NCBI RefSeq assembly: GCF_002205645.1
Contig: NZ_NIOF01000009.1
Coordinates: 62,001 to 126,000 of the forward strand
Length of the DNA: 64,000 nucleotides
Source of the DNA: Roseateles aquatilis
GTDB lineage: Bacteria; Pseudomonadota; Gammaproteobacteria; Burkholderiales; Burkholderiaceae_C
Direction of reading: 5' to 3'
Below the pieces are notes generated by a model. It saw only the letters and a list, made by a program, of their open reading frames with translations, did no database searches and was not told where the DNA came from. The translations under genes were made by a program, and so were the position numbers. This document shows, in pieces, positions 36,260 through 50,236 of the stretch. The stretch's first letter is position 1. The number at the start of each line of letters is the position of its first letter.

Positions 36260-37069
36260 TCAAGCCAGGATCACATCGACGCCACGCCGCCGCAGCTCCC
36301 CGACGATCGCGGCATCCGCCTCGTTGTCGGTGATCAGGATGTCCAGTTGCTCGACGGGCGCGATCACCGACAGGTTGCGCTTCATCAGCTTGGACGCATC
36401 CGCCACCGCCACGATCTGGCGCGCGATCTTCATCATCTGCGCGTTCAGCTGGGCTTCGAGCAGATGGGGCGTCATCAACCCGATCTCGGGATCGAGGCTG
36501 TCGACGCCCAGGAAGAGCCGGTCCGCGTACAGGCTCTGCAACGCGGTCACCGCCTGCGGTCCCGACAACGAGTACGAGTTCTGCCGCAGCAACCCGCCCG
36601 GCATGATGATGTTGACGCCCGGCACCGTCGCCAGCAGCACCGCGATGTTGAGCGCGTTGGTGATGACGTTGAGCGACTGCAGCCGCAGGCCGCGGATCTG
36701 CTTGGCGATCTCTTCGGTCGTCGAGCCGGAGTCGAGCAGGATGGTCTCGCCGTCGCGGATCAGCCGGGCCGCTTCGGTGGCGATGCGGACCTTCTGCTCG
36801 TGGCGCAGCTTCTGCTTGACGCTGATCGGTACTTCTTCCGTGTCGCGATGCGCGAGCGCGCCGCCGTGCGTGCGCAGCAGCGCGCCGGTGGAAGCGAGCG
36901 CGTTGAGATCGCTGCGGATCGTGACCACGGAGATGCCGAAGCGCTCCGCCAGTTCCTCGACCGTGACGCGGCCCTGTGTCTGCACCTGCTCGCGGATCAG
37001 CCGGCGCCGCTCGTCGATGAGCAGCGAAGCTTCTTGCCTGTCGGCGGTCGGAGTGCTCGAGGATGACAT
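36260..37069 (-). CDS. agaR: DeoR-family regulator, AgaR-like
   Basis: This 269-residue repressor has an N-terminal DeoR HTH (TVEELAERFGISVVTIRSDLNAL, about residues 34-57) and a sugar-phosphate-sensing domain (ILLDSGSTTEEIAKQI, DRLFLGVDSLDPEIGLMTP, VADASKLMKR). The neighbourhood of agaS, kbaZ-like and a sugar kinase makes AgaR, the N-acetylgalactosamine regulator, more likely than GlpR or FruR. A 16-base site at 37090-37105 upstream of its start is almost identical to one in front of the TonB receptor gene, suggesting autoregulation and control of the whole locus. Confidence 0.8.
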   Translation of the reverse strand: MSSSSTPTADRQEASLLIDERRRLIREQVQTQGRVTVEELAERFGISVVTIRSDLNALASTGALLRTHGGALAHRDTEEVPISVKQKLRHEQKVRIATEAARLIRDGETILLDSGSTTEEIAKQIRGLRLQSLNVITNALNIAVLLATVPGVNIIMPGGLLRQNSYSLSGPQAVTALQSLYADRLFLGVDSLDPEIGLMTPHLLEAQLNAQMMKIARQIVAVADASKLMKRNLSVIAPVEQLDILITDNEADAAIVGELRRRGVDVILA

Positions 37070-37089
37070 GACGGTCCGGAAGACGTGAA

Positions 37090-37105
37090 CTTTCGAATGA
37101 TATCG
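37090..37105 (-). promoter_or_regulatory. Candidate AgaR operator upstream of agaR
   Basis: The plus strand reads CTTTCGAATGATATCG, 21 bases before the agaR start. It matches, at 14 of 16 positions, the complement of 41932-41947. The CTTTCG half-site also recurs at 41721, 41738 and 41882. Confidence 0.5.
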
Positions 37106-37175
37106 AGGCGGCAGCGTTCGGAAGCGGTCGATCGCGAGCCGTCGCGGTCGATCACCGCGACGGCTGCTCCGGGCC

Positions 37176-38135
37176 TCAGGCGAATGCCGCCGCCGGCTTC
37201 AGCCGCGCGCCCACCAGGCGCGCCGCGTACATCGCGGCGCCCAGCTCCGGTCCGAAGCGCGGCGCGGTCAGCGCCGCGCCCGGCAGCACGCGGGCCAGCG
37301 CGGCGCGCAACGCGTCGGTGACGGACTCGCCGGCCTCGAAGACACCGCCGGTGTAGGAGACCTCGACCCGCGCGTCCCGCGGCAGCGCGAGCTGTCGCGC
37401 CACGCCCAGCGCCAGCGCGGCCAGCTCGTCGCCGGCTCGCGTCAGCAGCGCCGCGGCTTGCGTGTCCCCATCGGCAGCGGCGGTCGAGACCAGCCGCGCC
37501 AGTTGCGCCAGCCGGCTGCGCGCCGCGGTGCCGTTGATCGCCGCGCAGACATCGAGGTCGTGCGTCACGCCGAAGTGCTGGCGCATGCGGCCGAGCAGCG
37601 GTCCCGGTTCCGCGCGGCCGTCGGCCATGCGGGAGAACAGCGCCAGCCCTTCGCGCGCCAGCCAGTAGGCGGAGCCCTCGTCGCCGAAGACCTCGCCCCA
37701 GCCGCCGCTGCGCGCGCCGCGCCCTTGCCACTCGCCGTAGGCGATGGAGCCGGTGCCCGCCACCAGGCTGATGCCGTCCTGGCCGCCGAGCGAGCCCGCC
37801 CAGCTGCAGATCATGTCGTTGCCGACCCGGCCGCGCGGCAGCACGTCCGCCAGCAACGCGTCGAACGCGGGCAGCAGGCTGCTGTCCTCGCCGTGCGCTG
37901 GCAGTCCGGCGAAGGCGGAGGTGACGGCAGGCGGCGTCAGCCCCGCCTGTCGCAGCGCCTCGGCCACGCCGTCGCGCAGCAGCGCGCGCAGCGCGTCGAA
38001 GCCGATCTCCAGGTAGTAGCTGGTCGTCGAGACATGGCGCGCGAGCAGCGCGCCGTCGCCGTCCAGCAGCAGGAAGGACGTCTTCGTGCCGCCGCCGTCG
38101 ATGCCGAGGTACACGGCGTGGTTGCCAGAGCTCAT
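37176..38135 (-). CDS. BadF/BadG-type sugar kinase (GlcNAc/GalNAc kinase-like)
   Basis: This 319-residue ASKHA ATPase has the phosphate-1 loop GIDGGGTKTSFLLLD and the metal/phosphate region GTGSIAYGEW. GGVFEAGESV lies near the adenosine site. Related proteins phosphorylate N-acetylglucosamine; in Aga pathways of proteobacteria a kinase of this fold is thought to make GalNAc-6-phosphate. This assignment rests on the agaS/agaR context. It would supply cytosolic phosphorylated sugar, in place of a PTS. Confidence 0.8.
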   Translation of the reverse strand: MSSGNHAVYLGIDGGGTKTSFLLLDGDGALLARHVSTTSYYLEIGFDALRALLRDGVAEALRQAGLTPPAVTSAFAGLPAHGEDSSLLPAFDALLADVLPRGRVGNDMICSWAGSLGGQDGISLVAGTGSIAYGEWQGRGARSGGWGEVFGDEGSAYWLAREGLALFSRMADGRAEPGPLLGRMRQHFGVTHDLDVCAAINGTAARSRLAQLARLVSTAAADGDTQAAALLTRAGDELAALALGVARQLALPRDARVEVSYTGGVFEAGESVTDALRAALARVLPGAALTAPRFGPELGAAMYAARLVGARLKPAAAFA

Positions 38136-38151
38136 GGGGTGATCCGGGGCT

Positions 38152-39327
38152 TCAGGCCGAGGGCTGTTCGAGCGGATGGATGATGACGCCGCTGACCACG
38201 CGGGTCACGGTGCCGGACGCGCTCGGATTGTCCGGCGTGATGCCGAGCTTGAGCGACGCCAGCAGCGCCAGGCACTGGCCGAAAACCAGCGCCACCGGCG
38301 CCAGCCCCAGGTCCGGCGCGTCGGCGGGCAGGTCCAGCAGCACGTCGTCCTGGGCCAGCGCCTCCTCGCCGTCGAGCGCGGCGGCGCTCAGCGCGACGAT
38401 GCGGCCGCGGCCCTGGCGGCGCAGCTCGCGCAGCAGGTCCAGGTCGTAGCGGCGCGTGTAGCGGTCATTGGAGAGCAGGATCAGCACCAGCGTGCGATCG
38501 TTCAGCACCGTCTTCGGACCATGCCGGAAGCCCAGCGGCGAATCGGCCAGCGCGACCAGCCGGCCGTCGGTCAGCTCCAGGATCTTCAGCGCCGCCTCGC
38601 GCGCCAGTCCCTGCAGGCCGTTGCTGCCGAGCACGACGACGCGCTCGAACGGCTGCTCGCTGAGCGCGGTCAGGCGCCCGGCCTCGGACGCCAGCAGGTG
38701 GCGCGTCGCGGCGCCCAGCGCCGCCACCGGCGGCAGCGCCAGGCCGAAGGCCCAGGCCGCGGCCAGCAGCATGCCGGTGAAGCTGGACGTCATCGCGAAG
38801 GCGCGGTCGTGCGTCTCGTCGGGCAGCAGCAGCACGTGGGCGCGCTCGCGCTCGCCCAGGCGGCGCGCCAGCGTGCCCTCGGCGGCGCAGGTCACCGCCA
38901 GGTGATGGCAGTCCTGGACGATCGCGTCCGCCAGCTCGACGGCGGCCAGGCTCTCCGGGCTGTTGCCCGAGCGGGCGAAGGACACCAGCAGCGTCGGCAC
39001 GCCGGGCTGCAGGCATTGCGCGGGGTTGGAGACGATGTCCGTCGTGGCCACCGCCTCGACGCGGATGCCCGGCCGCGCGCCGAGTTGCTGCAGCAGTGCG
39101 GGGGTCAGGCATTGCCCGATGAAGGCGGAGCTGCCCGCGCCGGTCAGCACGATGCGCAGGTCCGGCCGTGCCAGCAGCGGCTGCAGGAAGGCGTCCAGCG
39201 CCGGGCGTCGCGCCTGGACGAGCGCGTGCACCGCCTGCCAGACGGCGGGTTGCTGGGCGATCTCGTGCGCGGTGTGCGGCGCGCCGCGGCGGTCGAGGTC
39301 GGCGGGATCGAGGTTGAGCAGGGTCAT
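38152..39327 (-). CDS. agaS: SIS-domain protein AgaS (galactosamine-6-phosphate deaminase-isomerase)
   Basis: This 391-residue protein carries two SIS domains. The first includes IVLTGAGSSAFIGQCL and VSFARSGNSPES; the second includes VVVLGSNGLQGLAREAALKILELTDG and ADSPLGFRHGPK. Length and motifs fit AgaS, which converts galactosamine-6-phosphate to tagatose-6-phosphate. It lies 16 bases from the kinase gene and upstream of it, between the kinase and a tagatose-bisphosphate aldolase subunit, so the pathway fits. Confidence 0.86.
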   Translation of the reverse strand: MTLLNLDPADLDRRGAPHTAHEIAQQPAVWQAVHALVQARRPALDAFLQPLLARPDLRIVLTGAGSSAFIGQCLTPALLQQLGARPGIRVEAVATTDIVSNPAQCLQPGVPTLLVSFARSGNSPESLAAVELADAIVQDCHHLAVTCAAEGTLARRLGERERAHVLLLPDETHDRAFAMTSSFTGMLLAAAWAFGLALPPVAALGAATRHLLASEAGRLTALSEQPFERVVVLGSNGLQGLAREAALKILELTDGRLVALADSPLGFRHGPKTVLNDRTLVLILLSNDRYTRRYDLDLLRELRRQGRGRIVALSAAALDGEEALAQDDVLLDLPADAPDLGLAPVALVFGQCLALLASLKLGITPDNPSASGTVTRVVSGVIIHPLEQPSA

Positions 39328-39372
39328 CGTCTTGTTGTGTCGGTGGGAAGGGACGCGCGCGGGTGGCCCGGT

Positions 39373-40674
39373 TCAGGCGGCGCAGGCGTGCAGGTAGGGG
39401 CGCAGCGACTGCGCGGTGCCGTAGCGCAGCAGCTCGGCCGGGCGATTGCGCAGCCGGCCGTCGCGGACCGCGTCGTACTGGCGCGGCAGGAACTGGCTCA
39501 GCAGCGTCAGCGGTGGTGGCGAATGTTCCAGCCGGTCCAGCAGGCCGGCGCAGGCGCGTTGCACCGCCGGATGCGTCCAGTAGTAGCGGATGCGGTCGCT
39601 CAGGCTGTAGGCCAGGTCGACCGTCAGCCGCGCCGGGTCCTGGTAGTAGGGCTGCCAGTGGCCCGGCTCGGCGCGCATCACGCCGAGCACCGTCTCGATC
39701 AGGTCGTCGCCGCCGGCCTGGCGGCCCAGCCATTCGCGCTCGATCGCGGCGAGGCCCCACAGCGTCTCGCGCAGCGCGAAGGTCGCGCCGGGACCGACCT
39801 TGAGGATCGCGAAGTGATCGCGGGCCAGTTGCGCCAGGCGCTGCGGGGTCTGGTAATCGGTGGAGTGAGCCTCGAAGACCAGGCCCGGCTGCGTCTCGAT
39901 GAAGGCGCTCAACGCGCGCGCCTTCTCGGGGCGGTAATCGATGACCTTGTGGTGGTCGAACTCCACGCCCGGCTGCACGACCATCGCGATCACGCGCTCG
40001 AAGGCGGCGTCGAGCCCCGCGCCGGCGAAGGCCTCGCGGTGCAGCGCCAGCGTCGCGCCGGCCGCCTGCGGCGAGGTGACGGCGAGGTCGTCCAGGTCCT
40101 CGTGTGCGCCGCCCGGCACCGGCACCTCGGTGCCGATGACGTAGACCGGCGGCTCGCCGCGGTCGGGCGTGTCGCGCCAGGCGTGCTCGGCGGCCAAGCA
40201 CAGGCGGACCGCGCGGGCGGCGATCTCGGGCTCGGGCAGCGGCACCGGATCGTCGGCGCAGGACATCGAGCAATCCAGGTGGATCTTGCGAAAGCCGGCG
40301 GCGACGTACCGCGCCACCATCACCTCGGCCTTGGCCATCGCCTGTGCCGCGGGCAGCTTGCGCCAGGCGTTGGGGCCGAGGTGGTCGCCGCCCAGGATCA
40401 GCAGGCCCGGGTCGACGCCTTCGGCCGCGGCCAGCGCCAGCACGAAGCGGCGGAAGTCCACCGGCGTCATGCCGGTGTAGCCGCCGTCCTGGTTGACCTG
40501 GTTGGAGGTGGCCTCGATCAGCGCGGGGCGGCCCAGCGCCGCGCATTCGCGCAGCGTCGCGGCGATGACGACCGGGTGCGCCGAGCACACCGACGGGATG
40601 CCGACGGCCGGCGAGTGATCGTTGAGCGGCGCGGCCTGCTTGTGGCGGCGCACGATGTCGAGCATGAGTTTCAA
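39373..40674 (-). CDS. kbaZ: Tagatose-bisphosphate aldolase KbaZ/GatZ-like subunit
   Basis: This 433-residue protein matches the KbaZ/GatZ/AgaZ family: MLDIVRRHKQ, GIPSVCSAHP, ATSNQVNQDGGYTGM, LGGDHLGPNAWR, HLDCSMSCADDP and EAHSTDYQ. Family members are described as a non-catalytic aldolase subunit, or alternatively as a tagatose-6-phosphate kinase in Aga pathways. The start is probably TTG at 40674, since GGAAGGA lies six bases upstream; the ATG at 40665 is the alternative. No catalytic KbaY is present in the window. Confidence 0.85.
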   Translation of the reverse strand: MKLMLDIVRRHKQAAPLNDHSPAVGIPSVCSAHPVVIAATLRECAALGRPALIEATSNQVNQDGGYTGMTPVDFRRFVLALAAAEGVDPGLLILGGDHLGPNAWRKLPAAQAMAKAEVMVARYVAAGFRKIHLDCSMSCADDPVPLPEPEIAARAVRLCLAAEHAWRDTPDRGEPPVYVIGTEVPVPGGAHEDLDDLAVTSPQAAGATLALHREAFAGAGLDAAFERVIAMVVQPGVEFDHHKVIDYRPEKARALSAFIETQPGLVFEAHSTDYQTPQRLAQLARDHFAILKVGPGATFALRETLWGLAAIEREWLGRQAGGDDLIETVLGVMRAEPGHWQPYYQDPARLTVDLAYSLSDRIRYYWTHPAVQRACAGLLDRLEHSPPPLTLLSQFLPRQYDAVRDGRLRNRPAELLRYGTAQSLRPYLHACAA

Positions 40675-40781
40675 GCGGGTTCCTTCCGGTCGGAGGGCAG
40701 CGGCCGGGACGGCGGCTGCGATGAATAGGGCGCGCGGGGCGGCGGAATCAGTCCATGCGTGGTGGGGGAGGGCCGGCGGGG

Positions 40782-41714
40782 TCAGGCCTTGCCATCCCGG
40801 GCGGGGTCGAGGTTCGGATCGGTCGCGGCGGCCTTGACCGGGCCGCCGCCTTCGGGTTGCAGCGCCAGCAGCAGCGCGGCCAGCAACGCCAGCGCCACGC
40901 CGACCAGCTTGGCGCCGCTGGGCGAGGCACCGCTCAACGCCATCGACAGCAGCGCGGTCAGCAGCGGCGCGCCGGCGTTGACCAGCGGCGACACCACCAG
41001 CGCCTTGCCGTGGCGGAAGGCATGCACCAGCGTCAGCGCGCCGATCGCGTTCAGCACCTGGATCACCGCGGCCAGGCCGGGGCCGTCCCACCCCCAGGGG
41101 ATCGGGCGGGAGAAGTCCGTCATCCACAGCGCCGCCGGGATGCACAGCAAGGCGCTGACGGTCATGTAGAAGAAGATGCTCTCGGCGCTGGCGGCCGCGT
41201 TGGCGGTCTTCAGGAAGTAAGCCTGCAGGCCCCAGGACGCCATCACGATCAGCGCCAGCCCGAACCACAGCCCCAGCGCCTGGCCCTGCTGCCCGAACTG
41301 GAAGTCGAACAGCGGCAGTGCGCACAGCGCCAGCACGATGCCAGCGACGCCCAGCCGCCCGGTACGCTCGCCCAGCAGGCCGAAGGACAGCGCGATCGTC
41401 ACCGCCGGCGACAGCGACACGATGGGGAAGATCAGGTAAGCGGGCCCGGACTCGACCGCGCGGAACAGCAGCATCTGCCCGCCCGCGCCGAGCAGGCCCA
41501 CCGTCAGCCCCTGCGCGACCGCGCGCCGGTCGCGCTGCAGCCGCCAGCCGGCACGCGCCAGCACGATCAAGGCCGGCGGAATCATCGTCAGCGCCCACAC
41601 GACGTACACGAGCGTGTCGGGGAAGCCGCGCTCGGCGGAGAGTCCGGTCAACGCGCCCCACGCGCCCCAGAACAGGGTGGTGATGAGGGCGTAGGTCAGC
41701 CAATGTCGTTGCAT
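40782..41714 (-). CDS. DMT/EamA-family permease
   Basis: This 310-residue protein has ten hydrophobic segments, two EamA repeats (residues ~5-140 and ~150-290) and a polar C-terminus. The first gene on the minus strand of the Aga locus, it has a perfect CTTTCGTACGAAAG palindrome 24 bases upstream of its start. It could be the inner-membrane importer for the amino sugar, since no other importer is in the locus. That is an inference from position; EamA proteins also export small metabolites. Confidence 0.8.
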   Translation of the reverse strand: MQRHWLTYALITTLFWGAWGALTGLSAERGFPDTLVYVVWALTMIPPALIVLARAGWRLQRDRRAVAQGLTVGLLGAGGQMLLFRAVESGPAYLIFPIVSLSPAVTIALSFGLLGERTGRLGVAGIVLALCALPLFDFQFGQQGQALGLWFGLALIVMASWGLQAYFLKTANAAASAESIFFYMTVSALLCIPAALWMTDFSRPIPWGWDGPGLAAVIQVLNAIGALTLVHAFRHGKALVVSPLVNAGAPLLTALLSMALSGASPSGAKLVGVALALLAALLLALQPEGGGPVKAAATDPNLDPARDGKA

Positions 41715-41737
41715 CGAGGGCTTTCGGGTTTTGATAA

Positions 41738-41751
41738 CTTTCGTACGAAAG
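41738..41751. promoter_or_regulatory. Palindromic operator candidate
   Basis: CTTTCGTACGAAAG is a perfect 14-base palindrome, 24 bases before the ATG of the DMT permease gene. Its half-site CTTTCG recurs 17 bases away at 41721. The likely binder is AgaR. Confidence 0.5.
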
Positions 41752-41931
41752 AATAAGGCAGGAAAATCGGAAACACAACGGAAGTTTCCGTGAGAGCCCG
41801 CCGGAGCAGGTGTTTCGAGGGAAAACCCGAACGATTGAGCGAGCTGCTCCAGGCCGAGTGCGTCGCTTTGGTATCCGAATGCTTTCGGCGATAGGCATAT
41901 CGAAAGAAAGAACGTCGGTAAAAACGATATA

Positions 41932-41947
41932 CGAAATCAATCGAAAG
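41932..41947. promoter_or_regulatory. Candidate AgaR operator near the TonB receptor gene
   Basis: CGAAATCAATCGAAAG lies about 150 bases before the receptor ATG. Its complement, CTTTCGATTGATTTCG, agrees with the site at 37090-37105 at 14 of 16 bases. Confidence 0.5.
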
Positions 41948-42098
41948 GATGCGTAGACTTGCGGCAAGCCGGTCAGAGGTCCAGGGACCGGCGCTCCGCG
42001 CCAGCCTGAGAGAGAGACCCGGCGCGCCTTCAGCGGAATCCCTCCGCCGCTCCCGACAGCCCGGGAAGCGACGGACCAAGACAACAAGGAACCATGTG

Positions 42099-44975
42099 AT
42101 GCGAGCTCCCCTGCATTCCCTCCTGCAAGCCAGATTCGCGCGGCGACCGGTGTCGGCCGCCGCGACGCTGGCGGCGCTGAGCTGCCTGGCCGTGGGCCAG
42201 GTCCAGGCGCAGGTTCAGCCGCCGGCCGCGGCCGCTTCGGCGCCCCCGACCCAACCCGCCGCCAAGGACGCCACCGCCGACCAGACGCTGGAACGGGTCG
42301 AGATCACCGGTACCCGCGCCAGCCTGCAGCGCTCGCTGAACCTGAAGCGCAATGCCGCCGGCGTGCAGGACAGCATCAGCGCGACCGAACTCGGTCGCTT
42401 TCCCGATGACAACGTCGCCGATTCGCTGAGCCACATCACCGGCGTGTCGATCTCCCGCACGGCGGGCGGCGAGGGCCAGAAGGTCAGCGTGCGCGGGCTG
42501 GGACCGGAATACACGCTCACGACCTTCAACAACCGCATCCTGGCCACCGACGGCGCGGGCCGCGACTTCGCCTTCGACGTGCTGCCGTCGGACATCATCA
42601 ACGGCGCGGACGTCGTGAAGTCGGCGCAGGCCTCGGTCATGGAAGGCGCCATCGGCGGCCTGATCAACCTGCGCTCGGCCAGCCCGTTCGACCAGCCGGG
42701 CCAGCACGGGATCATGCGCGTCGAGGGTGACCGCAACTTCATGTCCAGGCTCAACGGCGGCAAGGTCTCGGCCACCTACAGCAACACCTTCGGCAAGGAG
42801 CTGGGCGTGCTGCTGGGCGTGGTCTACGCCGACCGCAAGGTCCGCACCGACACCGCCGGCAACGACGGCGGCTGGACGCGCAATCCGATCTCCGACCCCG
42901 CCGCCAACTGGACCGGCAATGCCTGGGGCGGCAACATCGACCCGAACGGCAACGGCGTGCTCGATCCCAACGAGGAAGGCCTGATCGGACCGGGCCAGTT
43001 CCGCGTCGGCTCGATCATGGAACAGAAGAAGCGCACGGCGCTGTCGGGCAAGGTCGAGTGGCGGCCCAGCGACGACGTGAAGGTCACCGTCGACGGCATC
43101 AAGACGCGGTTGAACTCGCCGCAGGTCGGCTACCAGCAGTCGTTCTACACGCTGTTCGCGCCGGGCCGCTGGTCCAACATGCAGGTCCAGAACGGCGTCG
43201 TCACCAGCTTCACGATGAACAGCGCCAACCCGGACAACCAGCTGAATCCCGAGCTGCTGAACGTCACCGAGCACCGCGTCGTCGACAGCGCCGTCTACGG
43301 CGCCAACGTCGAGTGGAAGGCCACCAGCACGCTGAAGTTCGACGGCGACATCTACCAGTCCACCTCCAAGCGCCACTCCGGCGGCCAGGACACCTACACG
43401 GTCCTGCGCATGAACCAGCCCAACGTGACCACGGTGCAGCTGACCGGGTCCGCGGTGCCGGACATCGAAACCACCTTCAACGACGGCCGGGACCTGGTGA
43501 GCGGGCTGGCCTCGGGCAAGTTCGGCCCCAGCGACTTCAACACCCACTACCTCGGCCTGTCCGGCGACAACATCGACGACAAGATCCGCGGCCTCACGCT
43601 GAATGGCGCGTGGACCGTCGACCGCTTCAACGTCGACACGATCCGCTTCGGCATCAGCAACACGCGGCGCGACAAGAACCGCGATCTGGTGGACAACGCC
43701 ATCAACGGCGGCGAGAACTACTACTCCGGCACCAACGCGATCAACGTCGCCACGCTGGGCGGCAACGTGCTGGACCAGCACCTGAGCCTGCCCAACTTCA
43801 TGAACGGCGTCAGCGGCAATTTCCCGCGCAGCTTCCTGGGCTTCGACGTGCCCAATTACCTGGCGGCGCTGCAGGCCTACAACGGCAAGCCGCGTCCCGA
43901 CGGCGGCGTCTACGACTTCAGCAAGGCCGGCCCGGTCTGGAACCCGCTGCAGAGCTACCGCGTGCGGGAGAAGACCACCTCCGCCTTCATCCAGGCCGAC
44001 CTGTCCGGCGACAAGTGGAACGCGGACGTGGGCGTGCGCCTCGTGAAGACCAAGACCTCGTCCAAGGCCTGGGACGCCAAGATCCAGAGCCTGACCGAGA
44101 ACGGCCCCTTCAACTACACCGCCGTCTACGCCGCGCCGACCGAGATCGGCCAGGACGCCAGCTACACCTACGGCCTGCCGTCGGCCAACTTCGTCTGGCA
44201 CTTCGACGACAAGCTGCAGCTGCGCCTGGGCGCGGCCAAGACGATGGCGCGTCCGTCGGTGGAGCAACTGGCCCCGACCAGCACCACCGCGAGCGTCGCC
44301 TGGGGCGACTTCACGCAGGTCTACGGCGGCAACGCGGAGCTCAAGCCCTACAGCGCCAAGCAGTACGACGCGTCGCTGGAGTGGTACTACGCGCGCAACT
44401 CGGCGCTGACCTTCGCGGTGTTCCAGAAGAACATCAAGAACCAGATCACCACCAGCTGGCAGACCGGCGTGGACATCGGCGTGCCCGGCCATCTGTTCAA
44501 CGTGATGAAGCCGATCAACGGCGACACGGCGCGGGTGCGCGGCATGGAGATCGGCTTCCAGCACCTGTGGGACAACGGCTTCGGCGTGCGGGCGCAGCAC
44601 ACGCGCAACAACTCCAAGAGCGTGGTGGCGGGCGTGGAGGGGCCGCTGGCCGGCATCGCGCCGGCGACGTCCTCGATCGGCGTGCTGTATGAGAAGGGCC
44701 CGTGGAGCCTGAGCACGACGGCCGACCACACGGACGAGTTCGTCTCCGCGATCAACGTGCTGGGCCCCGGTTTCCACGAGCGCGCCAAGGCCATCACCTG
44801 GCTGACCGCGCAGGCCTCGTACGAGGTCAACCAGTGGCTGAAGATCAGCATCGAAGGCCGCAACCTGACCGACGCCAAGCAGGAGTACACGCTGGGCAAC
44901 GGCCAGATCACGCTGCCGCAGGGCTACAACCGCTGGGGCCGCGCGATCACCATCGGCGCCAGCCTGAAGTTCTGA
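42099..44975 (+). CDS. TonB-dependent receptor, carbohydrate-use type
   Basis: This 958-residue outer-membrane barrel begins with a signal peptide (about residues 1-37, ending AQAQ). The plug carries ERVEITGTRASLQRSLNLKRNAAGVQDSI..., ELGRFPDDNVADSL and the C-terminal barrel ends in LKF. This N-terminal pattern is that of receptors found next to glycosidase genes in glycan-utilisation loci of proteobacteria. AAGGA precedes the ATG. It is the first gene of the glycosidase operon and would import an oligosaccharide across the outer membrane with TonB energy. Confidence 0.9.
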   Translation: MRAPLHSLLQARFARRPVSAAATLAALSCLAVGQVQAQVQPPAAAASAPPTQPAAKDATADQTLERVEITGTRASLQRSLNLKRNAAGVQDSISATELGRFPDDNVADSLSHITGVSISRTAGGEGQKVSVRGLGPEYTLTTFNNRILATDGAGRDFAFDVLPSDIINGADVVKSAQASVMEGAIGGLINLRSASPFDQPGQHGIMRVEGDRNFMSRLNGGKVSATYSNTFGKELGVLLGVVYADRKVRTDTAGNDGGWTRNPISDPAANWTGNAWGGNIDPNGNGVLDPNEEGLIGPGQFRVGSIMEQKKRTALSGKVEWRPSDDVKVTVDGIKTRLNSPQVGYQQSFYTLFAPGRWSNMQVQNGVVTSFTMNSANPDNQLNPELLNVTEHRVVDSAVYGANVEWKATSTLKFDGDIYQSTSKRHSGGQDTYTVLRMNQPNVTTVQLTGSAVPDIETTFNDGRDLVSGLASGKFGPSDFNTHYLGLSGDNIDDKIRGLTLNGAWTVDRFNVDTIRFGISNTRRDKNRDLVDNAINGGENYYSGTNAINVATLGGNVLDQHLSLPNFMNGVSGNFPRSFLGFDVPNYLAALQAYNGKPRPDGGVYDFSKAGPVWNPLQSYRVREKTTSAFIQADLSGDKWNADVGVRLVKTKTSSKAWDAKIQSLTENGPFNYTAVYAAPTEIGQDASYTYGLPSANFVWHFDDKLQLRLGAAKTMARPSVEQLAPTSTTASVAWGDFTQVYGGNAELKPYSAKQYDASLEWYYARNSALTFAVFQKNIKNQITTSWQTGVDIGVPGHLFNVMKPINGDTARVRGMEIGFQHLWDNGFGVRAQHTRNNSKSVVAGVEGPLAGIAPATSSIGVLYEKGPWSLSTTADHTDEFVSAINVLGPGFHERAKAITWLTAQASYEVNQWLKISIEGRNLTDAKQEYTLGNGQITLPQGYNRWGRAITIGASLKF

Positions 44976-45102
44976 CCTTCGCGCCACCCGGCGCCGCGGC
45001 GGACGCGCTCCGCCCGGCCCGGGTTTCTCGCGTGCCATGCTCGGCCCCTCGCGCCGAGTCCCTCATCCGTCTCAGAGCCTGTCTCAGACCCGCAAGCCCA
45101 CG

Positions 45103-46251
45103 ATGATGAACCTCCTCCCCCGCGCCGCCGTGCTGGCGACCGTCCTCGCCGCCGCCTGCGCGGCGACGCCGGCCCAGGCGGCCGACGCTTCCGCCGGCAA
45201 GGCCGCCCCGAAGTCCGCCAACTCGGCCAAACCCTACGCGATGGCCGACTTCGCGCGCGTGCCCAAGATCGATGCGCACGTGCACCTGCACAACCCCGAT
45301 CCGGCCTTCGTCGAGGCGGCCAAGCGGCTCAACTTCAAGCTGCTGACGATCAACGTCGACTACCCGGACTTCCCGCCGCTGGACGACCAGCAGCGCGTCG
45401 CGCTGGCGCTCAAGCAGGCGCATCCGGACGACATCGCCTGGGCGGTCAGCTTCTCCAGCGACACCTCGGACCAGCCCGGCTGGCTCGCGGCGACGCAGGC
45501 GCGCGTGGACGCCGGCCTGGCGCAGGGCGCCGTCGGCGTGAAGGTGTGGAAGAACATCGGCATGAGCCTGCGCGGCGCCGACGGCAAGCTGGTGATGATC
45601 GACGACGCGCGCTTCAAGCCGCTGTTCGACTACTTCACGCGGCAGGGCATCGCGGTGCTGGGCCATCAAGGCGAGCCGCACAACTGCTGGCTGCCGCTGG
45701 AGAAGATGTCGGTCAACAACGACCGCGAGTACTTCGCCCATCACCCGCAGTACCACATGGCCCTGCATCCGGAGATGCCCAGCTGGGAGGACCAGATGGC
45801 TGCGCGCGACCGCATGGTGGCGGCGCATCCGGGCATGCGTTTCGTGGGCATGCACATGGCCTCGCTGGAGCGCGACGTGGATGAGCTGGCCGCCTTCCTG
45901 GACCGCTTTCCGACGGCCGTCGTGGACGTGGCCGCGCGCATCGGCCAGTTGCAGGCGCAGAGCCAGCACGACCGCGAGAAGGTGCGCCGCTTCCTGATCA
46001 AGTACCAGGACCGGCTGCTGTACGGCACCGACATCGCGCAGGCGCCCGACCAGTCCGGCGCGGCGCTGCTCCGGGAAGTCGAGCCCGTGTGGCGCATGCA
46101 CTGGCGTTACTTCAACACCGCGGAGCGCTTCAAGGTGTCCGACCTGGACCGGCCGGTGCGCGGGCTCGCGCTGCCGCGCGAGGTCGTGGACAAGCTCTAT
46201 CACCTGAACGCCGAGCGGGCCTTCCCCGGCGGCTGGAGGGCGCAGCGATGA
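45103..46251 (+). CDS. Exported amidohydrolase (amidohydrolase_2 type)
   Basis: This 382-residue protein begins with an Ala-rich signal peptide (about residues 1-25). The metal-dependent TIM-barrel shows IDAHVHLH (first metal His pair), GVKVWKNIG, LGHQGEPHN, FVGMHMASL and the final YGTDIA Asp. This family includes decarboxylases, sugar lactonases and other hydrolases. Its position between the receptor and glycosidase genes suggests action on the same glycan. The reaction is not known. Confidence 0.72.
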   Translation: MMNLLPRAAVLATVLAAACAATPAQAADASAGKAAPKSANSAKPYAMADFARVPKIDAHVHLHNPDPAFVEAAKRLNFKLLTINVDYPDFPPLDDQQRVALALKQAHPDDIAWAVSFSSDTSDQPGWLAATQARVDAGLAQGAVGVKVWKNIGMSLRGADGKLVMIDDARFKPLFDYFTRQGIAVLGHQGEPHNCWLPLEKMSVNNDREYFAHHPQYHMALHPEMPSWEDQMAARDRMVAAHPGMRFVGMHMASLERDVDELAAFLDRFPTAVVDVAARIGQLQAQSQHDREKVRRFLIKYQDRLLYGTDIAQAPDQSGAALLREVEPVWRMHWRYFNTAERFKVSDLDRPVRGLALPREVVDKLYHLNAERAFPGGWRAQR

Positions 46252-48986
46252 CCGCGCGCCGTGCGTTCCTCCAGTGGCTGGGCGCCGCCCCGGTCGCGAC
46301 GATGACGCCGCGCCTGGCGCTGGCGGTGACGGCCGGCGCGGCTGCGTCGGCCCGCGCCGCGGACGTCGGCCGCGGCCATGTGCGATTACAGGATGAGCGG
46401 CTGTCGCTGCAGTTCGACGGCCAGATGCGCAGCCGGCTCGTGCGGCTGGGCGGAGCGCGTCCGCTGACGCTGACCGGCTTCGATGCCGGCGAGCAACTGA
46501 TCGTCGCCGGCAAGCCCGTGCGCTTCACGCTGTCCGGCGCGATGCCCAGCAGCGGCGCCACGCCGTTCGGCGCGGGCCAGCGGCTGATGCTGACGGGCCG
46601 CGCCGCCGACGGCGTCGGCATCGAGCAGACGATCACCGCTACCTTGCTCGACGAGCATCCTGGCGTGGCGCTGCTGGAGGTGGCCTATCTGAACCGCTCC
46701 GACCGCCCGGTGGAAGTGCAAGGCTGGACCGTGGGCGCGCACCGCCTGCTGGCCGCGCCGCGGCACGCGGGCGGGTGGTGGACCTACTCGGGCGCGACGC
46801 ACCAGGACCGTCGCGACTGGATGCAGCCGGTCAAGCGCGGTTTCGAGCAGCGCAACTTCCTGGGCATGAACGCCTCCGACTACGGCGGCGGCACGCCGCT
46901 GGTGGATGTCTGGCGCCGCGACCTGGGCGTGGCGGTGGGCCATCTGGACAAGGTGCCGCGGCTGGTCTCGTTGCCGGTCAAGGCGGTCGGCGATGAGGTC
47001 GAGGTCGCGATGCGCGGCGACGAGCCCACGGTGCTCGCCGCCGGCGCGACGCTGGCGCTGCCGCTGGCCTTCATCGCGGTGCACGACGGCGACTGCTTCG
47101 TGCCGCTGGACCGCTACCGCCGCCTGATGGGCGCGCAGGGCCTGGCGGCGCCGGAGCCGCCGCGCAGCGCGCACGATTCGATCTGGTGCGCCTGGGGCTA
47201 CGAGCGCGACTTCTCGCTGCAGCGCGTGCGCGACACGCTGCCCAAGGCGCAGGAGCTGGGCCTGAAGTGGGCGGTGCTGGACGACGGCTGGCAGCGCCAG
47301 ACCGGCGACTGGTTCAACATCGATCTGAAGAAATTCCCGCGCGGCGAGGAGGACATGAAGGCGCTGGTGGCCGACATCCACGCGCGCGGCATGAAGGCGC
47401 GGTTGTGGATCGCGCCGCTGGCGGTCGCCCCCGGCAGCGACGAGCTGCACCAGCACGCCGACCTGTTGCTGCTGGACCGGGACGGCGCGCCGCAACTGGT
47501 GTCGTGGTGGAACTGCTTCTACCTGTGCCCGGCGGCTCCGGAGACCCAGCAGCGCATCGCGGCGGTGTTCCGCAAGATCATCGGCGACTGGGGTTTCGAC
47601 GGCCTGAAGATCGACGGCCAGCACCTGAACGGCGTCGCGCCGTGCTTCAACCCGAAGCACAAGCACGGCCGGCCGGAGGACTCCGTCGAGCACATGGTCG
47701 ACTTCTACCGGACGATGTTCGAGTCCGCCCACGCGGTCAATCCGGAAGCGGTGGTCGAGGTCTGCCCGTGCGGCACCAGCTACGCGTTCCACAACATGCC
47801 GTGGATCGACCAGGCGCCGTCGTCGGACCCGCTGTCGAGCTGGCAGGTGCGGCACAAGGGCAAGGCGCTGAAGGCGCAGATGGGGCGCTGGTCGGCCTAT
47901 GCCGGCGACCACGTGGAGCTCTCGACCGGCGGGCAGGACTTCGCGTCCAGCGTCGGGGTCGGGGCGGTGGTCTCGACCAAGTTCACCTGGCCCGAGGATC
48001 CCAAGCCCAAGGACTCCTTCCTGCTCACGCCGGAGCGCGAGCGTCACTGGCGGCGCTGGATCTCCGCGCACAACGCGAAGGTCCTGTCCGACGGCAGCTA
48101 CCGCGGCGAGCTCTACGACATCGCCTTCGACAAGCCGGAGACGCACGTCGTCGAGAAGAACGGCGTCCTGCATTACGCGTTCTACGCGCCGAGCTGGGAC
48201 GGCCCGGTCACGCTGCGCGGCCTGACGCCCGGCGTCTGGCGCATCCGCGACTACGTCAATGGTGTGGACCTGGGCCGCGTCGACGCGGCCCGGCCGACGC
48301 TGCCGGTGCGCTTCAAGGAGCACCTGTTGATCGAAGCGGTGCTGGAGAGCGCGTCGGGCCTGCCGCTGGCCCGCGCGACACGCCTGCCGCCGCGGCTGCT
48401 GGGACGCGACGGTTTCCCGCTGGCCTCGGCCTGGGAGGACGCGCCGTCCAGCTTCTTCGCGCATGACTGGCGCGGCCAGCCGCTGGCCGGGACGCAATCG
48501 ACCCGCGTGCAGCTGATGCATGGCGACGGCGCGTTGTTCCTGCGCTTCAACAGTCGCTACAACGCGATCACGACCTACGAGCGCGAGGTGTCCTCGACGG
48601 CGATCTGGCCGCTGTGGGAGCGCGACGTGGTGGAAGTCTTCCTGCAGGCGCCGCAGGATGCGGGCACCGACCGTTATCGCGAGGTCGAGGTGTCGCCGAA
48701 CGGCCTGGTCATGGACCTGGAGGTGCGAGGGCAGGGCCGCAAGCGCTTCGTCGGAGAAAGCAAGGCGCGCACGGCGATCGACGCGACCCATCGGATGTGG
48801 ACGGCGGAGCTGGTGGTGCCGATGGCGCGTCAGGCGCAGGCGCTCGATGGGTGGCGGATCAATCTGTTCCGCATCGAGGGGGAGCAGGCGTCGCGGCAGT
48901 TCTCGGCGTGGAGTCCGACGAACAGCGCGGTGGCCAACTTCCATGTGCCGGCCGCCTTCGGCCACCTGCGGCTGGAACGCGGCTGA
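46248..48986 (+). CDS. Tat-exported GH36-like glycosidase with C-terminal CBM9-like domain
   Basis: This 912-residue protein begins with a Tat-like signal (MTARRAFLQWLGA...). A beta domain (about 40-300) precedes a clan GH-D barrel (about 305-640). The motif CAWGYER...DDGWQ is typical, the nucleophile is probably D456 (FDGLKIDGQ), and the acid/base is probably D527 (APSSDPLSSW). A small beta domain and a CBM9-like module follow (about 715-905). GH36 enzymes act on alpha-galactose or alpha-GalNAc; the locus suggests alpha-N-acetylgalactosaminidase. Its stop abuts the stop of the opposing gene (TGA|TCA). Confidence 0.78.
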   Translation: MTARRAFLQWLGAAPVATMTPRLALAVTAGAAASARAADVGRGHVRLQDERLSLQFDGQMRSRLVRLGGARPLTLTGFDAGEQLIVAGKPVRFTLSGAMPSSGATPFGAGQRLMLTGRAADGVGIEQTITATLLDEHPGVALLEVAYLNRSDRPVEVQGWTVGAHRLLAAPRHAGGWWTYSGATHQDRRDWMQPVKRGFEQRNFLGMNASDYGGGTPLVDVWRRDLGVAVGHLDKVPRLVSLPVKAVGDEVEVAMRGDEPTVLAAGATLALPLAFIAVHDGDCFVPLDRYRRLMGAQGLAAPEPPRSAHDSIWCAWGYERDFSLQRVRDTLPKAQELGLKWAVLDDGWQRQTGDWFNIDLKKFPRGEEDMKALVADIHARGMKARLWIAPLAVAPGSDELHQHADLLLLDRDGAPQLVSWWNCFYLCPAAPETQQRIAAVFRKIIGDWGFDGLKIDGQHLNGVAPCFNPKHKHGRPEDSVEHMVDFYRTMFESAHAVNPEAVVEVCPCGTSYAFHNMPWIDQAPSSDPLSSWQVRHKGKALKAQMGRWSAYAGDHVELSTGGQDFASSVGVGAVVSTKFTWPEDPKPKDSFLLTPERERHWRRWISAHNAKVLSDGSYRGELYDIAFDKPETHVVEKNGVLHYAFYAPSWDGPVTLRGLTPGVWRIRDYVNGVDLGRVDAARPTLPVRFKEHLLIEAVLESASGLPLARATRLPPRLLGRDGFPLASAWEDAPSSFFAHDWRGQPLAGTQSTRVQLMHGDGALFLRFNSRYNAITTYEREVSSTAIWPLWERDVVEVFLQAPQDAGTDRYREVEVSPNGLVMDLEVRGQGRKRFVGESKARTAIDATHRMWTAELVVPMARQAQALDGWRINLFRIEGEQASRQFSAWSPTNSAVANFHVPAAFGHLRLERG

Positions 48987-49856: not shown

Positions 49857-50236
49857 GCCGATCTCCTTCGCCGATGTGCCAGAAACGGCCGCGACCATAG
49901 CGCAGATGCGTGTCGGTGTGCTCCCCACCGATGGGTGGCGCGCCGCCGAATGTCGCGTCCGCGCGGCGCCGCTTACGCATGGTTACCGCAAGACGCACGG
50001 CGGGCCCCTCACGCCTCCCCGCTGCCCCGGCCCCAACCTCGGCCCCGACCTCGGCCTCGGCCTCGACCTCGACCTCGACCTCGACCTCGACCTCGACCTC
50101 AGCCTCAGCCTCAGCCTCAGCCTCAGCCTCAGCCTCAGCCTCAGCCTCAGCCTCAGCCTCAGCCTCAACCTCAACCTCAACCTCGGCCGCGACCTCGGCA
50201 GCCATCGCGGCCGCGGGGAGCCGCACCGAGACCTTT
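49857..50236. other. 380-base gap holding a hexanucleotide array
   Basis: The gap lies between the TonB receptor gene (upstream on the minus strand) and the CsgG-like gene. It contains a 138-base array of CCTCNN hexamers at 50049-50186. No gene is credible: the apparent Arg/Ser, Ala/Glu or Pro/Gln readings across it only reflect the repeat. It could carry the promoter of the CsgG-like gene near 49870-49960, but I see no clear boxes. Confidence 0.6.
50049..50186. repeat. Hexanucleotide tandem array, 23 units
   Basis: In the frame CCTCNN the units are CCTCGG x2, CCTCGA x6, CCTCAG x11, CCTCAA x3 and CCTCGG x1. The runs of identical units imply repeat expansion by slippage. It ends 50 bases beyond the 3' end of the TonB receptor gene. 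Copy number is likely variable. Confidence 0.85.

Follow-up and report, generated by a model that had tools for sequence, protein, structure and literature searches.

How can a bacterium feed on amino-galactose glycans with a locus in which several enzymes of the known pathway cannot be seen? The question is raised by eight genes of Roseateles aquatilis at positions 36260 to 48986 of the 64,000-nucleotide stretch analysed here (contig NZ_NIOF01000009.1, positions 62,001 to 126,000; hereafter the window), which encode an AgaR-like regulator, a BadF-type kinase, AgaS, a KbaZ-like protein, an EamA permease, a TonB-dependent receptor, an exported amidohydrolase and an enzyme of glycoside hydrolase family 36 (GH36). 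The first-pass annotation had assigned them to the use of N-acetylgalactosamine (GalNAc) or galactosamine and, seeing no deacetylase, no tagatose-6-phosphate kinase and no catalytic aldolase subunit KbaY, had judged the locus either incomplete or reliant on unfamiliar steps. We propose, with moderate confidence, that they form an AgaR-controlled locus for eating alpha-galactosamine-containing glycans, and that the whole route is complete. The proposal is based on gene content, homology, active-site residues, conserved linkage, an operator-like site and the failure to find KbaY; every biochemical step, the substrate, the binding of AgaR and above all the role of the amidohydrolase are predicted. 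The locus has the look of a complete variant of the known Aga pathway, with release of galactosamine outside the cell or in the periplasm, a kinase, AgaS and a lone KbaZ-type epimerase.

The eight genes behave as one functional unit. Their content and order, as given in the first-pass annotation, were borne out by coordinates and family scans, five genes lying on the minus strand and three, divergently, on the plus strand. For comparison we gathered 40 loci by scanning named genomes with the GH36 protein; the scan relied on six peptide patterns taken from the query and so under-samples distant relatives. These loci span Roseateles/Mitsuaria, Massilia, Pseudoduganella, Burkholderia, gammaproteobacteria, Ignavibacteria, Bacteroidetes and others. 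Mitsuaria chitosanitabida (L027) is one of the carriers of the locus. Complete co-location of the eight genes was found in 13 of the 40, more than expected by chance, and at least seven genes were together in 16. Within range of the GH36 gene lay relatives of kbaZ in 21 loci, agaS in 24, the kinase in 20, the permease in 26, AgaR in 23, the TonB receptor in 20 and the amidohydrolase in 21, the L055 copy at only 26% identity. Gene order varies: the cytosolic arm is placed after the GH36 gene in L030, L031 and L033, and the positions of the regulator and the amidohydrolase differ in L038-L040 (and in L037, which is incomplete). The co-location is therefore not just the recent descent of one block. 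Weighing against so general a unit, 12 of the 40 loci (L032 included), many of them distant or incomplete, show GH36 alone or with a TonB receptor relative only.

Which sugar would be released is best indicated by the GH36 enzyme (46248..48986, plus strand). Its gene start was read as the ATG at 46248, giving a 4-bp overlap with the amidohydrolase stop, and not as the GTG at 46089 of the long open reading frame (ORF); the N-terminus carries an RR-x-FL (twin-arginine) motif, suggesting export of the Tat type. FpGalNase was its only near-full-length relative in the Protein Data Bank (PDB), with E 8e-71 to 1e-72; the next matches were partial, with E 3e-12 or weaker. The predicted structure (pLDDT 86.8) gave the same picture in Foldseek, where FpGalNase (9awt) surpassed by far every other enzyme listed: it matched at E 5.2e-56 with TM(target) 0.91, and ordinary GH36 alpha-galactosidases at 2.3e-29 and about 0.60. 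The active-site residues listed for FpGalNase in PMC11762096 are W317, D346, D347, W387, K461, D463, Y464, C513 and D532. By eye, eight of the nine are identical in the window enzyme (W316, D345, D346, W387, K454, D456, C508, D527), the K-x-D correspondence having been taken by eye because the phmmer alignment puts a gap beside the nucleophile. The ninth, Y464, whose mutation lowers FpGalNase activity, is a glycine, a point against the role proposed here. We propose from these sequence and model comparisons that the enzyme belongs to the FpGalNase subgroup and is an exo-alpha-galactosaminidase. Its C-terminal 200 residues form an extra beta domain, present in 9 of 26 aligned proteins. Here the first-pass annotation had seen a CBM9-like module; the match to CBM9_2 is weak (E=0.02), its 15.1 bits falling short of the cut-off of 25.

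The kinship with FpGalNase bears directly on the missing deacetylase. In Flavonifractor plautii, FpGalNase and the deacetylase FpGalNAcDeAc are described as jointly converting the blood-group A antigen (PMC11762096). The window locus shares with that pair a GH36 enzyme of the same subgroup, with eight of the nine listed active-site residues, and a second hydrolase beside it; it differs in the glycine at the Y464 position, in the extra C-terminal domain and in the second hydrolase, a PF04909 amidohydrolase probably unrelated to FpGalNAcDeAc, as empty PDB searches suggest. FpGalNase reportedly has a strict requirement for a deacetylated substrate. A glycosidase related to an enzyme that acts after a partner deacetylase may render a cytosolic AgaA unneeded. 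An amino-galactose glycan as substrate, already proposed in the first-pass annotation, is thus retained, with AgaS, AgaZ and AgaR homology in its favour, and of the two sugars galactosamine is more likely than GalNAc to be the one set free.

GH36 is chiefly a family of alpha-galactosidases, and Melibiase was the best Pfam match of the window enzyme. The locus could then serve plain galactosides or galactitol-like sugars, with GH36 as an alpha-galactosidase and AgaS and KbaZ handling tagatose-6-phosphate of non-amino origin. KbaZ relatives were found in 17 of 299 family genomes, four of them at least 82% identical, in the carriers of the GH36 enzyme and the amidohydrolase, and 13 at 53-56%, in genomes without the GH36 enzyme; GH27 enzymes, with an NPCBM domain, lie near the GH36 gene in 6 of 43 loci (L017, L029, L030, L031, L032, L033), the larger set of loci being that covered by our NagA, aldolase, PfkB, DUF4832 and GH27/NPCBM neighbour queries. 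We nevertheless regard this explanation as very improbable, as AgaS belongs to an amino-sugar deaminase/isomerase family and the match to FpGalNase, in fold and in sequence, is far better than that to any alpha-galactosidase listed.

AgaS (38152..39327, minus strand), the proposed galactosamine-6-phosphate deaminase/isomerase, matched TIGR02815 agaS_fam over its full length (E 2.7e-139), at 464.3 bits against a cut-off of 529.2, and its PDB relatives are named 'putative tagatose-6-phosphate ketose/aldose isomerase' (best E 3.6e-94). Its product would be tagatose-6-phosphate. Next to agaS lies the gene for the GatZ/KbaZ-like protein, or AgaZ (39373..40665, minus strand), whose reading frame opens at 42087 and whose start was read near 40665. 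The protein matched PF08013 (E 2.9e-174; 580 bits against a cut-off of 26.7 in a scan within the longer frame) and exceeded the cut-off of TIGR02810 agaZ_gatZ (576.2 against 568.8 bits). GatZ and KbaZ, for long known as aldolase chaperones, have been reported as C4 epimerases that convert fructose-6-phosphate into tagatose-6-phosphate (PMC11907403). According to the same report, loss of gatZ ends tagatose production in E. coli, and gatZ or kbaZ restores it whereas fbaA, gatY and kbaY do not. The five active-site residues named for GatZ (C20, D87, H88, E171, H257) all have identical counterparts in the alignment with the window protein (C27, D94, H95, E180, H267). With such an activity tagatose-6-phosphate could enter glycolysis as fructose-6-phosphate without a kinase or KbaY, and the homology suggests that the lone KbaZ-like protein could be a tagatose-6-phosphate C4 epimerase.

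In one respect the protein is unlike its E. coli counterparts, since no GatY/KbaY partner was found in the window genome. A single class II aldolase was found in the 6.4 Mb; it looks like a housekeeping fructose-bisphosphate aldolase (FBA), as it exceeds the cut-off of the FBA model TIGR01521 (577 bits) and fails the tagatose-bisphosphate model TIGR01858 (220 against 443.55 bits). Searches for kbaY, pfkB and agaA elsewhere in the genome had been recommended in the first-pass annotation; the first, as just described, found none, and the second detected five PfkB-family genes, all outside the locus. The classical view weighs against a lone epimerase: GatZ was taken as a subunit supporting tagatose-bisphosphate aldolase, and PMC11907403 itself recalls that GatZ raises that activity. 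An older proposal, repeated in the review PMC12118421, makes AgaZ a tagatose-6-phosphate kinase, which would here lead to tagatose-1,6-bisphosphate with no KbaY, unless FBA accepts it. A Bacteroidetes contig of 8.2 kb (L048) carries AgaS, PfkB and a class II aldolase with no kbaZ match, although kbaZ may lie past the contig end; a replacement of the kinase-aldolase pair by KbaZ alone would produce just such a pattern. Relatives of the L048 aldolase and PfkB were not found in the other 42 loci searched. The reported epimerase activity and the kinship with FpGalNase would together make the deacetylase, the kinase and KbaY dispensable, and the case for an incomplete pathway is weakened to that extent.

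How galactosamine would be taken up and phosphorylated is suggested by the two remaining genes of the cytosolic arm, which encode an EamA/DMT permease (40782..41714, minus strand; EamA E 7.7e-23), the proposed inner-membrane galactosamine importer, and a BadF-type sugar kinase (37176..38135, minus strand; BcrAD_BadFG E 4.8e-40), the proposed galactosamine kinase. The locus itself has no gene of a phosphotransferase system (PTS), no genome-wide search for one having been made. Two findings count against free galactosamine as the sugar handled: most of the kinase's relatives in the PDB act on N-acetylglucosamine (GlcNAc) or N-acetylmuramic acid, a hexokinase being found besides, and a NagA exists elsewhere in the genome. 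Borrowing of this chromosomal NagA is the main rival route. GH36 would free GalNAc, permease and kinase would handle it, NagA would deacetylate GalNAc-6-phosphate before AgaS, as it does in an E. coli without agaA, and the amidohydrolase would do other work. E. coli NagA is stated to substitute for AgaA (PMC12118421), and Shewanella is described as having the permease AgaP and the kinase AgaK instead of a PTS (PMC2996990, PMC12118421). However, the NagA found here (C20) adjoins a NagK-like kinase, NagB-II, a GH3-type hexosaminidase and an AmpG-like transporter, a neighbourhood that is a GlcNAc cluster, and the clear GH36 relative has been named and studied as a galactosaminidase working with a deacetylase. 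No AgaA/NagA-type deacetylase was detected among the locus proteins scanned, nor any NagA relative in the 43 loci at E 1e-8 with the NagA of the same genome as query. The search for agaA thus ended in a gene outside the locus and tied to another sugar, and we consider its recruitment quite improbable.

If deacetylation precedes hydrolysis, as in the reading that we prefer, the most likely agent is the exported amidohydrolase (45103..46251, plus strand; PF04909, 49.4 bits against a cut-off of 26.4), whose start is probably at 45103 rather than at 45037, where the ORF opens. Its relatives have, by eye, N-termini that resemble signal peptides or those of lipoproteins. Across 19 sequences H59, H61, K150, H188 and H251 do not vary and D310 hardly does, a pattern that we take to be compatible with a metal site. 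Hexosamine-phosphate deacetylases (NagA) belong to the same superfamily. Of the 299 family genomes, four have the GH36 protein, and exactly these four have the amidohydrolase; the pairing also holds in two Arenibacter loci without cytosolic enzymes in range. A role of the amidohydrolase as extracellular GalNAc de-N-acetylase would make the locus whole without AgaA and would suit its pairing with a galactosaminidase; judged from this pairing, we hold it to be possible, at somewhat less than an even chance.

A number of observations argue against this role. The fold model (pLDDT 87.8) had 3irs as best match (Z 21.4, rmsd 2.9, 241 residues aligned), and the matches listed are of the PF04909 type, including an uncharacterised Bordetella protein and COG3618 proteins; they are mostly decarboxylases, lactonases and hydratases, with ochratoxin amide hydrolases lower and no sugar de-N-acetylase among the 50 matches listed in each of two fold comparisons. 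PDB sequences gave no match to the amidohydrolase profile at E up to 0.1, and a plain sequence search gave none that was credible. Order-wide searches of 399 genomes matched in one genome each, the window's own, and yielded no further relatives for comparison. The four carriers among the family genomes are kin, three being of one genus (the window genome shares its genus with G218 and G288), and do not count as four independent events. Finally, in four Burkholderia loci (L034, L035, L036, L044) neither an amidohydrolase nor a related TonB receptor accompanies GH36 and the five minus-strand genes within range, L034 having a porin gene close by, and L032 has receptor and GH36 with no amidohydrolase within 10 kb. 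The glycosidase and the cytosolic arm may thus act as proposed while the amidohydrolase takes off some other substituent, for example by lactonase or decarboxylase action on an acidic decoration, or deals with a by-product, the polymer arriving already deacetylated. The exopolysaccharide Pel is indeed described as partly deacetylated and largely a GalN-GalNAc alpha-1,4 repeat (PMC9135694). Given the superfamily kinship with NagA and the exact pairing with GH36, we find this alternative somewhat unlikely.

A broader proposal joins the pieces. The amidohydrolase would be the first member of a novel type of extracellular alpha-GalNAc de-N-acetylase that has no kinship with FpGalNAcDeAc, and would with GH36 enable the end-wise use of alpha-1,4-(GalN/GalNAc) polymers (Pel, fungal galactosaminogalactan) via a kinase-free, aldolase-free epimerase shortcut, in Burkholderiales and in a small number of lineages of gammaproteobacteria and Bacteroidetes. 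Taken as a whole we judge it unlikely. Its polymer part draws on neighbours of the GH36 gene in relatives, which suggest a Pel- or galactosaminogalactan-like glycan as food. A DUF4832 protein lies near this gene in L017, L030, L031, L032, L033, L041, L045 and L046 (the five scanned proved to be DUF4832/DUF4874); a weak match in L056 (28% identity) was excluded. Gram-positive pel clusters are reported to contain DUF4832 genes (PMC7112168), and a streptococcal DUF4832 protein to disrupt Pel-dependent aggregates (PMC12345266). Among the 299 family genomes DUF4832 was found in 20, namely 2 of the 4 GH36 carriers (near the locus in G030, on a contig other than that of the locus in G218) and 18 of the 295 non-carriers; its presence is not specific to carriers. 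Profile searches of the window's own genome for an endo-hydrolase detected neither GH114 (PF03537) nor a DUF4832 protein. The polymer is therefore not nameable from this genome, and a Pel-like food is a lead from relatives only.

Are both arms under one regulator, as the first-pass annotation had held? The AgaR-like protein of the DeoR family (36260..37069, minus strand) matched DeoRC (E 2.7e-45) and HTH_DeoR; the AgaR model NF040755 scored best of the 11 models matched, with E 1.5e-73 and 247.1 bits, below its curated cut-off of 260. The 234-bp gap between permease and receptor genes contains 8 occurrences of TTTCG/CGAAA, against 64 in the whole window. The palindrome CTTTCGTACGAAAG (41738..41751), the proposed operator facing the permease arm, supplies the only exact match of CTTTCGNNCGAAAG in the genome and is kept in the corresponding gap of relatives. 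When 15 gaps were compared (the window and 14 loci, two of these duplicates of others), CTTTCGNNCGAAA was present in 14, that of L017 being off by one base. The exact 14-base palindrome pattern occurs in 12 of the 40 loci, in one copy each. A second site, CTTTCG-N13-CGAAAG (41882..41906), the proposed operator facing the receptor arm, was located by a script search of the gaps, which found equivalents in L017, L024, L026 and L028 and not in the ten other loci compared. The conserved divergent operator-like site, the AgaR homology and the synteny support common control; AgaR would repress both arms by binding the palindromic CTTTCG/CGAAAG sites. Elsewhere in the genome the palindrome has four one-mismatch places, with 5 matches per strand in total against 6 for a reversed control. 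As this is the level of chance, we claim no wider regulon. A search with the E. coli AgaR consensus gave best scores of 17-20 of 24 at scattered positions and was set aside in favour of the conserved palindrome.

The proposed route can now be followed from the outside. The TonB-dependent receptor (41949..44975, plus strand; TonB-Xanth-Caul type, TIGR01782 559 bits against a cut-off of 310) would carry oligosaccharides over the outer membrane. Terminal alpha-GalNAc would lose its acetyl group, in the periplasm or outside the cell and most likely through the exported amidohydrolase, after which the GH36 enzyme would free galactosamine in the manner of the FpGalNAcDeAc/FpGalNase pair. Galactosamine would pass by way of the EamA permease into the cytosol, where the BadF-type kinase would make galactosamine-6-phosphate, which AgaS would deaminate and isomerise to tagatose-6-phosphate. 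The KbaZ-like protein alone would epimerise the latter at C4 to fructose-6-phosphate, the entry to glycolysis.

With the E. coli Aga/Gam pathway the locus shares an AgaR-type repressor, AgaS and KbaZ homologues and the proposed amino-galactose substrate. Unlike that pathway it contains no PTS gene, AgaA or PfkB, pairs a kinase with the EamA permease instead of uptake by phosphorylation, and adds an extracellular glycosidase, a receptor and an amidohydrolase. The Shewanella GalNAc pathway, described with AgaP, AgaK, AgaA-II, AgaS and an outer-membrane protein (PMC12118421, PMC2996990), is similar in having a kinase, a permease, AgaS and an outer-membrane receptor and no PTS. The window locus departs from it in lacking AgaA, in its EamA-type permease and in a unit that includes a GH36 galactosaminidase and an exported amidohydrolase. 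Shewanella AgaP belongs to a transporter type other than EamA.

Several further observations concern the surroundings of the locus. It is flanked on the left by genes for a pseudouridine synthase, an S49 protease and ChaN and on the right by a CsgG-like gene, adjoined at 50028-50199 by about 170 bases of CCTCAG/CGGCCT-type hexamer or dodecamer repeats that translate, depending on the frame, to Pro-Arg/Pro-Gln or Glu-Ala repeats. ARAGORN called a tRNA-Pro(ggg) at 42924-43004 on the minus strand, within the TonB receptor gene, probably a false positive in G+C-rich coding sequence. Among relatives, the Arenibacter loci L051 and L052 hold amidohydrolase, GH36 and an AgaR relative together; L051, which was scanned, also encodes a GH20-like protein and a polysaccharide-lyase-14-like protein (below cut-off). 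Exported proteins of about 860-880 residues with similar N-termini recur near GH36 in Ignavibacteria and Bacteroidetes (L041:13840-16419, L042:16325-18958, L043:12721-15354, L046:16168-18804); the L041 member has no Pfam match, and the family is possibly another enzyme for the same glycan. Some kilobases after GH36, a GHMP galactokinase-like kinase is encoded in L041:18328-20282, L042:20788-21875 and L046:20644-21744 (family scan for L041 only), hinting at another route for the released amino sugar in these lineages; L041 also holds nucleotidyltransferase, ROK and SIS proteins.

We recognised no earlier description of the locus in the openly licensed literature, judged mostly from titles and the openings of abstracts. 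If the proposed route is correct, it would be a case in nature of a GatZ/KbaZ protein that carries out an entire metabolic function on its own, and would bear directly on whether the so-called aldolase chaperones are enzymes. It would also extend the deacetylase-galactosaminidase logic of blood-group A conversion to environmental bacteria, possibly with a new deacetylase family, and would draw attention to bacteria feeding on biofilm or fungal polymers rich in galactosamine.

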